Source: Aldersonia kunmingensis | GTDB taxonomy: Bacteria; Actinomycetota; Actinomycetes; Mycobacteriales; Mycobacteriaceae | DNA length: 64,000 bases | Assembly: GCF_001646865.1 (NCBI RefSeq) | Contig: NZ_LRRB01000270.1 | Coordinates: 1 to 64,000 of the forward strand | Reading direction: 5' to 3' | Part shown: positions 16,477 to 21,167 of the stretch, one piece after another | Layout: each line of letters starts with the position of its first letter | How positions within the stretch are numbered: position 1 is the first letter of the stretch | Notes under the pieces: generated by a model | What the model saw: the letters and a program-made list of their open reading frames with translations, nothing else | Databases searched by the model: none | Told to the model about the DNA's origin: nothing | Position numbers and translations under genes: made by a program

Positions 16477-17352
16477 ATGCCCACAGAGTCGACACGCTCC
16501 GACTGTGTACGACTTCGGGGTACGAACGAGAGCACAGCTACGAATGGAAGGTCTCACGGATACGACCTCGACAAGCGCTGCCGCCGCGGGCGCTACCACC
16601 GACTACTTCCGTCGGTCTACAGCATCCGCGAACCCAACGCGCTCACTCGATGTGCCGCGATCCTCGCGTGGGAACCGGCGGCGGTATTCAGTCACCGCAC
16701 CGCGGCCTGGTTGTGGCACATGCTGCCCGAGGCGCGACTATTCGAAGAAACCGTGCCCCCGAACCTGCACAAGTCGACGCCGGGGTGGCTTCGCCTGTAC
16801 CGACGAGACCTGCCGCCCGAAGAGGTGGTCAAATCGTGGGACATGCCCACCGTCGGACCGGAGCAAGCACTGATCGACTGCCTTGCTGTATTGCCGAAGG
16901 CGGAGGCCGACCGCCTGATCGATGCGGAACTGTCTCGCACCGTGAACATCGAGGCCCTGCGCTTGCTGCACAAGAAGCACCCCGGACGTGTTGGGAACGG
17001 CGAGGTTCTCCGCCAGATCCGGACCGCTGCGCCGGCTGCCGCGTCCGAACCCGAGCACCTCCTCGCCCGCGAATTTGCCCGCCGAGACTTCACGATGGCA
17101 CCCAACGCGCCGGTCGGCCCCTTCTACGCGGACTTCCTCGACGCTCGCGCCCGGTTGGTCGTCGAAGTCGACGGACTCGCGTTCCACAACGATCCCGCGG
17201 TATTTCGGAGGGATCGCCGCCGACAGAACTGGATGGTGCTGCAGGGCTTCCTCGTCCTGCGCTATGCCGCGGCAGACGTATTCGAGAGCGTTTCGGGTGT
17301 TGCGGACGAGGTGATTGCGGTGGCGCGGCGACGGCGCAAGTCGCTCGGCTGA
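16477..17352 (+). CDS. DUF559/Vsr-like endonuclease-domain protein with probable N-terminal frameshift
   Basis: From YDLDKRCRRGRYHRLLPSVYS onward this reads as an actinobacterial DUF559-type protein. A winged-helix, AbiEi-like N-terminal region is followed by a C-terminal Vsr-like nuclease fold (DFLDARARLVVEVDGLAFHN...RRDRRRQNWMVLQGFLVLRY). The first 28 residues of this frame do not resemble the family. The expected N-terminus (GVRTRAQLRMEGLTD) is instead encoded in another frame from GTG 16505, and joins if about two bases near 16562 are skipped. It may be a recent pseudogene, a sequence error, or a gene with a novel N-terminus. Confidence 0.6.
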   Translation: MPTESTRSDCVRLRGTNESTATNGRSHGYDLDKRCRRGRYHRLLPSVYSIREPNALTRCAAILAWEPAAVFSHRTAAWLWHMLPEARLFEETVPPNLHKSTPGWLRLYRRDLPPEEVVKSWDMPTVGPEQALIDCLAVLPKAEADRLIDAELSRTVNIEALRLLHKKHPGRVGNGEVLRQIRTAAPAAASEPEHLLAREFARRDFTMAPNAPVGPFYADFLDARARLVVEVDGLAFHNDPAVFRRDRRRQNWMVLQGFLVLRYAAADVFESVSGVADEVIAVARRRRKSLG

Positions 17353-17444: not shown

Positions 17445-18293
17445 ATGGATCTGCTGCCGCTCGCTCCGTCCGGAACAACCCCTGTCCGGGCGCTGACGAT
17501 CGCAGGAACCGACTCGGGTGGCGGCGCCGGCATCCAGGCCGACAGCCGCACGATGGCCATGTGCGGCGTACACGCATGCGTCGCCGTTGCCGCCGTGACC
17601 GTGCAGAACTCGCTCGGTGTCAGCGGGTTCCACGAGATCCCGCCGCAGATCGTGGCCGACCAGGTCCGCTCCGTGGTGAGCGATATCGGCGTGGGTGCCG
17701 CCAAGACCGGCATGCTCGCCTCCTCCGCGATCATCAATGCCGTCGCCGAGGTCTGCGACGAGGTTGGCATCGGCAAAGGCCACGCGATTCCGCTCGTGGT
17801 CGACCCCGTGTGCGCGTCGATGCACGGCGATCCGCTGCTGCACCCCGAGGCGCTCGACGCCGTGCGCAACACGCTGATCCCGCGTGCGACCGTGGTGACC
17901 CCCAATCTCGACGAAGTACGGCTCATCACCGGAATCGACGTGGTCGACGACGCCACCGCACGCCGCGCCGCCGAGACCCTCCACCAACTCGGCGCGCAGT
18001 GGGCTGTCGTAAAGGGCGGGCACCTGCGCAGTTCGACCGAGAGCACCGACCTGCTCTTCGACGGCAACGAGTTCCACGAGTTCACCGCACCGCGCATCGA
18101 CACCGGCAACGATCACGGCGGTGGCGACACACTCGCCGCTGCCATCGCTTCCGCACTCGCACACGGGTATTCGGTCCCGGATGCGTTCGGGTTCGCGAAG
18201 GAATGGGTGACGCGCTGCCTCGCCGCCGCCTACGACCTCGGTGGTGGGCATGGGCCGGTGTCGCCACTGTGGCGACTGGAAGAGCCGAACTGA
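17445..18293 (+). CDS. thiD: Hydroxymethylpyrimidine/phosphomethylpyrimidine kinase
   Basis: Phosphorylates HMP and HMP-P in thiamine pyrophosphate synthesis. It is a ribokinase-like protein of 282 residues with GTDSGGGAGIQAD (about residues 21-33), KTGMLAS (about 87), VVDPVCASMHGDPL, and the C-terminal anion-hole region NDHGGGDTLAAAIAS with the catalytic Asp. The usual G-x-G-C/D pattern reads GGGD. Its 3' end overlaps the convergent sigma-factor gene by 64 bases. Corresponds to Rv0422c; thiC is not in this window. Confidence 0.94.
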   Translation: MDLLPLAPSGTTPVRALTIAGTDSGGGAGIQADSRTMAMCGVHACVAVAAVTVQNSLGVSGFHEIPPQIVADQVRSVVSDIGVGAAKTGMLASSAIINAVAEVCDEVGIGKGHAIPLVVDPVCASMHGDPLLHPEALDAVRNTLIPRATVVTPNLDEVRLITGIDVVDDATARRAAETLHQLGAQWAVVKGGHLRSSTESTDLLFDGNEFHEFTAPRIDTGNDHGGGDTLAAAIASALAHGYSVPDAFGFAKEWVTRCLAAAYDLGGGHGPVSPLWRLEEPN

Positions 18294-19537
18294 CCCGTCA
18301 TCTCCGCTGCCGCCGCCGCCCGCTCGAGCAACAGACTCCGCTCGTGCTTCGTCGGCGCTACCTCCGCCGCGGCCTCCAAAACTCTTGCGGCATCCCCAAA
18401 CCGGCCCAGCTTCGTGAGCACGTCACCACGCACCGCGCCGAACAGGTGGAACCCGGCCATCCGCGGGTCCTCCCCCACCTCGTCGAGAGCGATCAGCGCG
18501 ACTTCCGGACCGTCGGCGTGCAGGAGGGCGACTGCACGATTGAGCGCCACGACGGGCGACGGGGCCAGCTGACCGAGCGCGTCGTAGAGCGAAACGATTG
18601 CCTCCCAATCAGTTTCATCGAAGCTTTTGGCCCGCGAATGGCAGCCGGCGATTGCGGCCTGCACGGTGTACGGGCCGAGTGGGCGGCGCAGGGTGATCGC
18701 GCGGTCGAGCGCGGCGAGGCCGTGCCGGATCAGTGTGCGATCCCAGCGCGAGCGGTCCTGATCGGGTAACAGGATCGGTGCACCGTTCGCGTCCACGCGC
18801 GTGGCGAACCGGGAAGCATTGAGTTCCATCAGTGCGAGCAACCCATGCACCTCCGGCTGATTCGGCAGCAGACCGGCGAGGACGCGTCCGAGTCGCATCG
18901 CCTCCTCGGCAAGGTCGCGGCGCACCCACGCATCGCCCGAGGTGGCCGAGTAGCCCTCGTTGAACACGAGGTAGATCACCTCGAGCACCGCGGAAACCCG
19001 CTCGGGTAGTTCGTCGGGCTGTGGCACCTCGAACGGCACATGGGCCTCGGCAAGCGTGCGCTTGGCCCGAGAGATCCGCTGCCCGAGCGTCGTCGACGAC
19101 ACCAGGAAGGCCCGCGCGATCTCCTCGGTGCGCAGACCGGCCACCACTCGCAGGGTCAGTGCGACCCGTGCCTCGCGAGGCAGCACGGGGTGACATGCGG
19201 TGAAGATCAGTGCGAGCACGTCGTCCCGCAGCGCCGCTGCCGCCGGTTCCGGGTCCGGGTTTTGGGCGAGATCGCGCGCGATCTCCGCGTACCTCTCGTC
19301 CCGGGCATGCTCGCGGCGAATGCGGTCGATTGCCTTGAATTTGGCGGTCTTGGTCAGCCAGGCCCCCGGGTTCGCAGGAACGCCGCGCTCGGGCCACTGC
19401 TCGAGCGCGGCGAGGAACGCATCCTGCGCAACCTCTTCCGCCAGGCCGAGGTCACGAACCATCCGGGTGAGCGACGCGATGATCTGCGCCGACTCCATCC
19501 GCCAGATCGCCTCGATGGTGCGGGTGACGTCCGGCAT
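18230..19537 (-). CDS. ECF42-type RNA polymerase sigma factor with DUF6596 domain
   Basis: A 435-residue sigma factor. Sigma-70 region 2 lies near residues 5-70 (DLGLAEEVAQDAFLAALEQWP) and region 4 near residues 110-160 (RTEEIARAFLVSSTTLGQRISRAKRTL). A long C-terminal DUF6596/TPR-like extension follows. The class, ECF42, is normally encoded beside a DGPF/YciI-like protein, as here: the partner ends 11 bases upstream. There is no anti-sigma gene; in this class the C-terminal domain is thought to control activity. The last 64 bases overlap thiD on the other strand. Confidence 0.92.
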   Translation of the reverse strand: MPDVTRTIEAIWRMESAQIIASLTRMVRDLGLAEEVAQDAFLAALEQWPERGVPANPGAWLTKTAKFKAIDRIRREHARDERYAEIARDLAQNPDPEPAAAALRDDVLALIFTACHPVLPREARVALTLRVVAGLRTEEIARAFLVSSTTLGQRISRAKRTLAEAHVPFEVPQPDELPERVSAVLEVIYLVFNEGYSATSGDAWVRRDLAEEAMRLGRVLAGLLPNQPEVHGLLALMELNASRFATRVDANGAPILLPDQDRSRWDRTLIRHGLAALDRAITLRRPLGPYTVQAAIAGCHSRAKSFDETDWEAIVSLYDALGQLAPSPVVALNRAVALLHADGPEVALIALDEVGEDPRMAGFHLFGAVRGDVLTKLGRFGDAARVLEAAAEVAPTKHERSLLLERAAAAAEMTGQFGSSSRHSGDTGPCPPPRS

Positions 19538-19548
19538 GTCGTTGCCCG

Positions 19549-19995
19549 CTAGCTCGTCGGATGCTGTTCGCGAATTCGCTCGTTGAGCTGCTCTTCACGC
19601 TCGCGCAACTCGGGGGTGTACACATCGGGGTCGACGTCGTTCATGTCATAGATCGGCCGGATCTCGAGCAGCTGCCGACCGGTCGCATCTGCCGGAGGCG
19701 AAGGGCACCGCTTGGCCCACTCGATTGCCTCCTCGAGCGAGCTGACCTCCCAGAGCCAGTACCCCGCGATGATCTCCTTCGATTCGACGAACGGGCCGTC
19801 CACCACCGATGTGGTGCCGCCCTGCCACACGATCCGCGCACCGTCCGAGGTGGGCCGCAGACCCTCGCCGTCGAGCATGATGCCGGCGCTGACCAGCTGC
19901 TCGTTGTACGTGGTCATCTCGGCCATCATCGCCTCGGTCGGGGCGATCTTGTCCTCGTCGACGCCGTCTCCCTGAATCATCACCATTACGCGCAT
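19549..19995 (-). CDS. DGPF-domain (YciI-like) protein, ECF42 partner
   Basis: A 148-residue protein of the YCII-related/DGPF family. The motif reads VVDGPFVESKEIIAGYWLWEVSSLEEAIEWAKRCP (about residues 66-99), with the DGPF signature that names the family. These proteins form an alpha/beta barrel and are nearly always linked to ECF42 sigma factors. Their function is not known. The ATG at 19995 has GGAGGCAG just upstream. Two palindromic repeats lie 130-185 bases upstream. Confidence 0.92.
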   Translation of the reverse strand: MRVMVMIQGDGVDEDKIAPTEAMMAEMTTYNEQLVSAGIMLDGEGLRPTSDGARIVWQGGTTSVVDGPFVESKEIIAGYWLWEVSSLEEAIEWAKRCPSPPADATGRQLLEIRPIYDMNDVDPDVYTPELREREEQLNERIREQHPTS

Positions 19996-20127
19996 GACTG
20001 CCTCCTGATCGGTTCGCCGTGCGGCGGTCTTGCCGCCCGGTCACCAAACCTTCGAATGAGGTTGCCCGTTTTCGACCGACGCCGAAAAGAAACTTGCACC
20101 ACCTGCGATCGGCCCCCATTTCCGCGG

Positions 20128-20174
20128 GTGAACGGATCGTTCACTGCGCTCAGCGGGGTGAACGGATCGTTCAC
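20128..20174. repeat. Two copies of the palindrome GTGAACGGATCGTTCAC
   Basis: Identical 17-bp inverted repeats (7-bp arms, 3-bp centre) at 20128-20144 and 20158-20174, spaced exactly 30 bp, about three helical turns. The identity extends a few bases outward (GGGTG... and ...TGCG). A further palindrome CGGAACTTCCG lies at 20189-20199. They sit between the luciferase-like gene and the DGPF/ECF42 operon. They could be operator sites for a helically phased regulator, or a dispersed intergenic repeat. Confidence 0.75.
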
Positions 20175-20213
20175 TGCGTTGAACGCAACGGAACTTCCGT
20201 TCACACCTTGCGA

Positions 20214-21131
20214 TCAGCCCCGCTCGCGAGCCACCGCTTCCCGCACGGCAGGGACCACCTCGGCCGCAAACTTACGGATCTGATCTAGATCGTCGCCCTC
20301 GGTCCCAAAGATGAAGGTGTCCATGCCGCCATCGACGACGAGTTCGGTCAGCTCGTCGATCCACTGCCCCACGGGACCGTTGAGGAACCCCTTGGAACCG
20401 GTGGTGGGGATCGAACCGAACACGTTGTACACGCGGCGGATCTCACTCGGCTCGCGCCCGGCAGCGGCGGCGCCGTCATCGATGCGCGCATGCCCGGCGG
20501 CCAGCTTCTCGGGCGGGAAGTAGCTCGCCGACGGCACCCAGCCATCCGCGTGGCGCCCGGTTTCGCTGAGCATGCGCGGGCCGAGCACGCCCCACCAGAT
20601 CGGAACGCCGTGTTCCGGCGGTGGACCGGGGTGGATACCGGCGAGTTGGTAGACCTGGCCGTCGTATGTGACGGATCGCTCGGTCGACCAGATCGCACGA
20701 GCCACATCGGTGGCCTCGATGAGCGCGGTTGCCGCGTCGCCGGGCGATCGCCGCGGCCCGCCGAATCCCTCGATCGCATCCCAGAATCCGCCTGCCCCGA
20801 GGCCGAGGATGAACCGTCCACCGGACAGGATGTCGAGCGTCGCAGCGGTTTTCGCCATCACCGCGGGCGGGCGCAGCGGAAGGCACGCGACATCGGGGAA
20901 CACACTGATCCGCTCGGTGCGCGCGAGCAGCGTGGTCATCAATGCGAACGCGTCGAGAAATCGGCGCTGATACGGGTGGTCCTGCACACCGATCAGGTCG
21001 AGTCCGGCGCCGTCTGCCACCTCGGCGACCTGCACAACGTGCCGCGCGGATTCGGCTGCGGGATTGGCGAACACCCCGAACCGTGGTTCATGTCCGTAAT
21101 CGCCCACGATCGCCTCCGATCGGCTCGGCAT
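20214..21131 (-). CDS. Luciferase-like (LLM class) flavin/F420-dependent oxidoreductase
   Basis: A TIM-barrel oxidoreductase of 305 residues. Typical segments are GLDLIGVQDHPYQRRFLDAF (about residues 37-56), RISVFPDVACLPLRPPAVMAKTAATLDILSGGRFILGLGAG, and the C-terminal GGMDTFIFG region. Neither substrate nor cofactor can be read from the sequence; many actinobacterial members use F420, and fgd1, which makes reduced F420, is encoded at 42-43 kb. Start ATG 21131 is preferred, with GTG 21146 possible. Confidence 0.88.
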   Translation of the reverse strand: MPSRSEAIVGDYGHEPRFGVFANPAAESARHVVQVAEVADGAGLDLIGVQDHPYQRRFLDAFALMTTLLARTERISVFPDVACLPLRPPAVMAKTAATLDILSGGRFILGLGAGGFWDAIEGFGGPRRSPGDAATALIEATDVARAIWSTERSVTYDGQVYQLAGIHPGPPPEHGVPIWWGVLGPRMLSETGRHADGWVPSASYFPPEKLAAGHARIDDGAAAAGREPSEIRRVYNVFGSIPTTGSKGFLNGPVGQWIDELTELVVDGGMDTFIFGTEGDDLDQIRKFAAEVVPAVREAVARERG

Positions 21132-21167
21132 TACCCCTCGAACCACCCTAACGAGCGCGTGCCGGTC

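Follow-up and report, generated by a model that had tools for sequence, protein, structure and literature searches.

Short palindromes lie upstream of an operon in Aldersonia kunmingensis that encodes a YCII-related protein and an ECF sigma factor, which, after the label in the initial annotation, we take to be of the ECF42 type. The question raised by this locus is whether these palindromes serve the operon as operators or are part of something dispersed more widely. The window analyzed here is a whole stretch of 64,000 nucleotides, and three of its genes, all on the minus strand, bear on the question: the sigma factor gene, with a DUF6596 C-terminal extension (18230 to 19537; Pfam PF04542, PF08281, and PF20239), the YCII-related gene, termed DGPF type in the initial annotation (19549 to 19995; PF03795), and a gene for a luciferase-like monooxygenase (20214 to 21146; assigned from PF00296, the open reading frame [ORF], and context). 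A gene for a DUF559 (PF04480) protein is also located in the window (16477 to 17352, plus strand).

Two exact copies of the 17-mer GTGAACGGATCGTTCAC are present at 20128 to 20144 and 20158 to 20174, and a third palindrome, CGGAACTTCCG, is present at 20189 to 20199. Their earlier description as helically phased holds for the 30-bp spacing but only loosely for the phase, 30 bp being 2.86 turns at 10.5 bp per turn. Matches to the 17-mer with ≤3 mismatches number five in the window, compared to 0.27 expected, and five was reached in none of 100 shuffles. Each 17-mer consists of perfect 7-bp arms (GTGAACG and CGTTCAC) flanking a 3-nt center, and because the arms are perfect it matches its own reverse complement with three mismatches, which explains two of these five matches. 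In a genome search, the exact 17-mer was found at four places, two of them here.

The three sites are parts of one 77-bp element (20128 to 20204, plus strand), recognized by blastn and covariance-model matches to dispersed copies. Its left arm (20128 to 20153), delimited by comparison with other long copies and possessed by 15 of 58 copies, is the source of the first 17-mer; the core hairpin, CGGGGTGAACG-GAT-CGTTCACTGCG (20154 to 20178), contains the second; and the tail, TTGAACGCAACGGAACTTCCGTTCAC (20179 to 20204), includes the third palindrome and is mostly complementary to the left arm. The two identical 17-mers arise because the left arm of this copy is identical over 21 bp to the core (inner hairpin) region. 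The whole element could form one long hairpin or cruciform: as RNA, each strand of the region folds into a single long hairpin (−49.2 and −52.7 kcal/mol; z of ∼−6.3), and folding as DNA gives a z of −6.8. A short coding role had also been considered, as the repeats encode AVNDPFT twice in the minus direction, but it is not supported: no minus-strand ORF of ≥80 amino acids spans the element, and the repeat is in frame because the spacing is 30 bp. Plus-strand ORFs of 89 and 240 amino acids span the element mechanically, and neither was picked by our gene caller.

One possibility raised in the initial annotation was that the sites could be operators of an unseen repressor, here one that controls the ECF42/YCII operon. 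Paired palindromes resemble operators in general, and the element does occupy part of the intergenic gap that precedes the YCII gene, but it is ∼130 bp from the YCII start, only 9 nt behind the stop codon of the monooxygenase gene and ∼35 bp upstream of a promoter-like block on the minus strand (20050 to 20093; TCGGTCGAAAACGGG...TTCGAAG). A congener, Aldersonia sp. NBC_00410, retains the sigma factor/YCII pair and the monooxygenase gene (and, by eye, the peptidase gene that follows), with ∼2.9 kb of other ORFs separating YCII from the monooxygenase gene. Searches of this region of the congener with nhmmer and with the core pattern detected no element. The stretch upstream of YCII is recognizably conserved between the two species (alignment score of 94 for the whole stretch, compared to ≤73 in 500 shuffles), and its best-kept block, TCGGTNGAAAACGGG...TTCGAAG, at ∼20050 to 20093 of the window (minus strand), is a putative promoter. 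Conservation of the element together with the operon was therefore not found in the congener, which keeps both genes and their upstream sequence without it, and dozens of other copies adjoin different genes. An operator function is thus not supported, and we regard it as highly improbable. The accessible part of one review describes ECF42 factors as controlled via the C-terminal extension through protein interaction (PMC8999054).

The alternative that had been offered, a dispersed repeat family, is borne out. At least 58 distinct copies occur at 52 sites in the A. kunmingensis genome (>30 bits with R1, a covariance model of the 52-nt core, together with nhmmer on fetched neighborhoods), and 57 have their midpoint outside called genes. 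Hundreds of copies in unrelated intergenic regions had been expected of such a family; the copies are dispersed and intergenic, but dozens were found, 58 being a lower bound because 150 of 3,179 first-look candidates were scored. This count was obtained from 62 rows by dropping two duplicates from overlapping loci (L064/L108) and two rows scoring <20 bits, and an alignment of 77 copies (A2) leaves out the second copy at L103, which is identical to the first, as well as the L064/L108 copy that had been deleted. A blastn search of the genome with the element stretch gave 71 matches, counting both strands of palindromic copies.

Two forms can be distinguished. The short form (43 copies, 52 nt) consists of an 11-bp hairpin, CGGAGTGAACG-GAAG-CGTTCACTCCG, followed by a 26-nt tail like TCTAACGCAACGAATCTTCCGTTCAC. 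The long form (15 copies, 77 to 78 bp), to which the window copy belongs, adds a left arm like GTGAACGGAAGTTCAGTTGCGCTCAG, which renders the whole self-complementary. The long form was called at a left-arm score of ≥17, flank controls reaching at most 13, and one copy counted as short has a score of 14.5, between the two groups. Six sites carry two copies, with a spacing of 75 to 78 bp at five and 100 bp at L103. Comparison with Rfam gave four weak matches (17 to 20 bits, compared to gathering scores of 50 to 100), and identity with an Rfam family was rejected.

Of the 58 copies, 30 have their midpoint in convergent, 20 in codirectional, and 5 in divergent gaps, 2 are at contig edges, and 1 is within a called gene, genes having been called with our own simple codon-usage caller. 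In a test on 49 of the 52 sites (omitting two at contig edges and one within a called gene), with background gaps taken from the window and the element neighborhoods, convergent gaps made up 26 of the 49 with an element and 10 of the 105 without one (Fisher P = 1e-8), while divergent gaps were avoided (4 of 49 versus 41 of 105; P = 5e-5). Among the 53 copies facing a gene 3′ end, 43 have the nearest one ≤51 nt away. The congener shows the same convergent excess (8 of 20 element gaps versus 41 of 365; P = 0.0015) and no significant avoidance of divergent gaps (2 of 20 versus 99 of 365; P = 0.12). Orientation is not preferred in codirectional gaps (10 sense and 10 antisense, counted by eye). The neighbors themselves differ, with seven paralogous pairs between loci among 101 neighbor proteins, and a large recurrent neighbor gene family was rejected. 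From the strong hairpin and its proximity to gene ends, we infer a role as a 3′ hairpin; the placement between convergent genes could, however, be mere tolerance of neutral insertions.

Pairing within the copies bears on the level at which such a hairpin would act. Pairing of the core hairpin is retained in 98.8% of 671 cells, and changes on both sides of a pair occur in 16 cells, compared to 4.5 in shuffles. The number of pairs with both-side changes (two) and of further pair types (seven) is not above that of shuffles, 349 of 500 of which reach them, and evidence from covariation is consequently modest. One-sided changes are mostly G-U on the tail strand (31 cells versus 8 unpaired), an excess that hints at an RNA-level role, against which stands the even orientation in codirectional gaps. 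A fold in which the tail instead pairs with the 5′ arm was rejected, being retained less well than the core hairpin (94.9% versus 98.8% of cells). Counting against a 3′-end role, no U-tract intrinsic terminator was called between 19300 and 21300 of the window.

The flanks of the copies contain a further motif, ATCCACA/TGTGGAT, which we take to be DnaA-box-like. Within 60 nt of copies it is ∼8-fold denser than in other intergenic DNA (2.6 versus 0.33 per kb), with 18 matches at 11 of 58 copies; at L069 it forms, by eye, an inverted repeat around the element, and L062, L067, and L108 are among the other loci with the motif in their flanks. The full TTATCCACA is close by in 3 of 58 copies. This density, the preference for convergent genes, the lack of preferred orientation, and the strong DNA hairpin would all suit a DNA-level site that organizes the chromosome through gyrase, a nucleoid protein, or a replication protein, comparable to some roles proposed for the REPs of Escherichia coli. 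The accessible part of one article gives DNA polymerase I, gyrase, and IHF as reported binding partners of REPs (PMC1525189). Nevertheless, copies number only dozens and are patchy in relatives, and the full motif accompanies very few of them; we consider a chromosome-organizing function improbable.

The distribution among relatives is patchy. Among the genome contigs searched, those of Aldersonia sp. NBC_00410 alone gave matches to the exact 22-mer GTGAACGGAAGCGTTCACTCCG (15, spread over 13 stretches), the A. kunmingensis genome having possibly been excluded from that search. With filters stricter than those above, so that weak matches may be lost, R1 gave matches in 9 of 201 family genomes; these were strong only for the two Aldersonia genomes and moderate for G089. 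A looser core pattern (TGAACGG-N0-3-CGTTCA), counted in both directions, occurs 45, 159, 45, and 93 times in G000, the congener (G001), G058, and G106, respectively, compared to 0 to 11 times (nearly all 0 to 5) in the other 147 of 151 genomes, and the reversed pattern occurs in none of these four. In G106 and G058 (another genus), the 93 and 45 matches represent bursts of the core pattern, and the single copies read have spacers of their own. In two copies of the congener (L138 and L143), a GC-rich insert, GGAGCGGAGCCTGCGGAGCGACCCGAC, interrupts the element behind its core hairpin, and a similar string lies near a copy at L068 of A. kunmingensis.

A second family of palindromes, ATCGACTGAACGGAACCGTTCAGTCGAT, is also present in the congener; the copies read are mostly doubled, and 23 of the 24 palindromes within the 785 kb fetched lie outside called genes. 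At the congener loci L135, L136, L142, L146, and L188 to L190, this palindrome occupies gaps orthologous to element sites of A. kunmingensis. Correspondence of sites was assessed from 24 paired loci: L110 was omitted, as it is not an accepted copy, and among the remaining 23, mapping succeeded on both flanks for 18 and failed for 3, while 2 lay at an edge. The 18 mapped gaps of the congener comprise 11 with the element, 5 with only the second palindrome, and 2 with neither. Chance would give 1.4 of 18, as 30 of 395 fetched gaps carry either palindrome (hypergeometric P = 2e-18), in a sample of 785 kb of ∼5.7 Mb whose stretches were mostly chosen around the congener's own copies of either palindrome. 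The two species agree in orientation at 9 of 11 common sites, among them all five at which both copies are short (L058, L067, L068, L091, and L101), and have opposite orientations at two (L076 and L097).

Orthologous copies are nonetheless no more similar to each other than other copies are. In 8 of 11 pairs the orthologous copy is less similar to the A. kunmingensis copy than is the average paralogue within A. kunmingensis, and in only 6 of 11 is it more similar than the average of the other congener copies, with mean similarity scores of 44.6, 46.9, and 45.3 for orthologues, A. kunmingensis paralogues, and other congener copies, differences that are small (∼2 in 52). This fits either homogenization within species or reinsertion at favored sites. 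A further reading would be that these are concertedly evolving gene-end palindromes lacking a RAYT, that is, functional 3′ hairpins of which the positions and mostly the orientation persist between species, with the sequences being repeatedly overwritten by the current consensus of the species or even by a different palindrome family. We put this forward tentatively and consider it doubtful.

A means of mobility was sought in several ways. First, no Y1/RAYT transposase (PF01797) was detected in the A. kunmingensis genome or in G001, G058, G089, and G106, in a search whose control matched in 6 of 14 genomes. Second, none of the 70 tail matches is a solo tail, all being at element copies, and no other element with matching ends was seen: besides 80 end matches with 2 to 3 mismatches there are 10 with 0 to 1 mismatch, and these 10, traced individually, all lie at or ≤40 bp from copies. 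Third, blastn of plasmid and phage collections with one long copy as the query gave no match. Fourth, the only two informative target-site comparisons (L065/L114 and L101/L150, by eye) revealed no clear duplication.

These results bear directly on the possibility that the repeat is a purely selfish, nonautonomous miniature palindrome, which an unknown transposase or copying linked to replication would have spread and which would persist solely at harmless insertion sites behind gene ends. Such a nature would be in keeping with the patchy spread among family genomes and the high core-pattern counts in four genomes, with the six double sites, and with the extra A. kunmingensis copy relative to the congener at L101/L150. 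Some long copies also carry TCCCACA further left or TGTGGGA further right, with both present in three congener copies (L125, L127, and L128). Conversely, no Y1 transposase was found in the five genomes searched, the ends were found on no other element (as judged from tail matches and end matches with 0 to 1 mismatch), and positions are widely common to A. kunmingensis and the congener. A selfish element is consequently a credible reading, but one that we think will probably not prove correct.

Comparison with known repeat systems places the family near the REPs. Classical REPs occur in more copies than the Aldersonia repeat. REPIN/RAYT systems consist of paired inverted palindromes that form within-genome sequence families, as in the Aldersonia repeat, but membership was rejected, no cognate Y1 transposase having been found in the five genomes tested. 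The long form, with its complementary ends and location in gaps, resembles a MITE, a classification rejected because no autonomous parent with matching ends was found among the tail matches and the end matches with 0 to 1 mismatch. Letters that we presume to be like those of integron attC sites are present in reverse order, and this resemblance was set aside. As characterized in the accessible part of PMC1525189, REPs are palindromic, extragenic, repeated, frequent between convergent genes, and ∼21 to 65 bases long; the article also notes later statements that they do not act as specific terminators, a point against the terminator function of such hairpins. The Aldersonia repeat is likewise palindromic, repeated, extragenic (57 of 58 copies), and frequent in convergent gaps, and the 52-nt short form is within the length range, whereas the long form exceeds it, has two nested palindromes, and is found without a RAYT. 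CGTC-tagged REPs are hairpin repeats apparently without a dedicated transposase, according to the accessible part of PMC3733652. CGTC is found at the stem end in 39 of 58 A. kunmingensis copies, with likewise no Y1 transposase found, but in 0 of 22 copies of the congener; the stem includes the first two letters of CGTC, unlike the unpaired tag, and is 11 bp rather than 8 to 9 bp. No GTAG was seen in the flank census, and membership in the GTAG/CGTC-tagged superfamilies was rejected. Stem-loop repeat families of Mycobacterium tuberculosis, Mycobacterium leprae, and Corynebacterium diphtheriae (PMC2267715, accessible part) are similar in description, being repeated stem-loops of related actinobacteria. 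In term searches of the accessible text, neither Rhodococcus nor Nocardia turned up in PMC3733652 and neither Rhodococcus nor Mycobacteri- in PMC12306157, and no paper on palindromic repeats of Aldersonia was among the matches listed.

We favor, with guarded confidence, an interpretation of the window feature as a long-form copy of a REP-like dispersed palindrome of Aldersonia (Nocardiaceae) that is retained as a 3′-end hairpin and has been spread or homogenized within the species. The reason for retention would be the presence of a strong hairpin at transcript 3′ ends that works on either strand and may limit read-through between convergent genes, protect mRNA 3′ ends, or both. Gene conversion, or mobilization by some enzyme, could spread and homogenize the sequence within each species. 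The window copy would then act on the 3′ end of the monooxygenase gene rather than serve the ECF42/YCII operon as an operator.

For the ECF42 sigma factors, this removes a false lead on their missing input. If the concerted-evolution reading is true, it would imply an unknown mechanism of copying or conversion directed at hairpins that lie behind genes. The family is small and well bounded within the Nocardiaceae and has a congener for comparison, and it thus offers a test bed for REP-like spread without a RAYT transposase and for whether hairpins define transcript 3′ ends between convergent genes.
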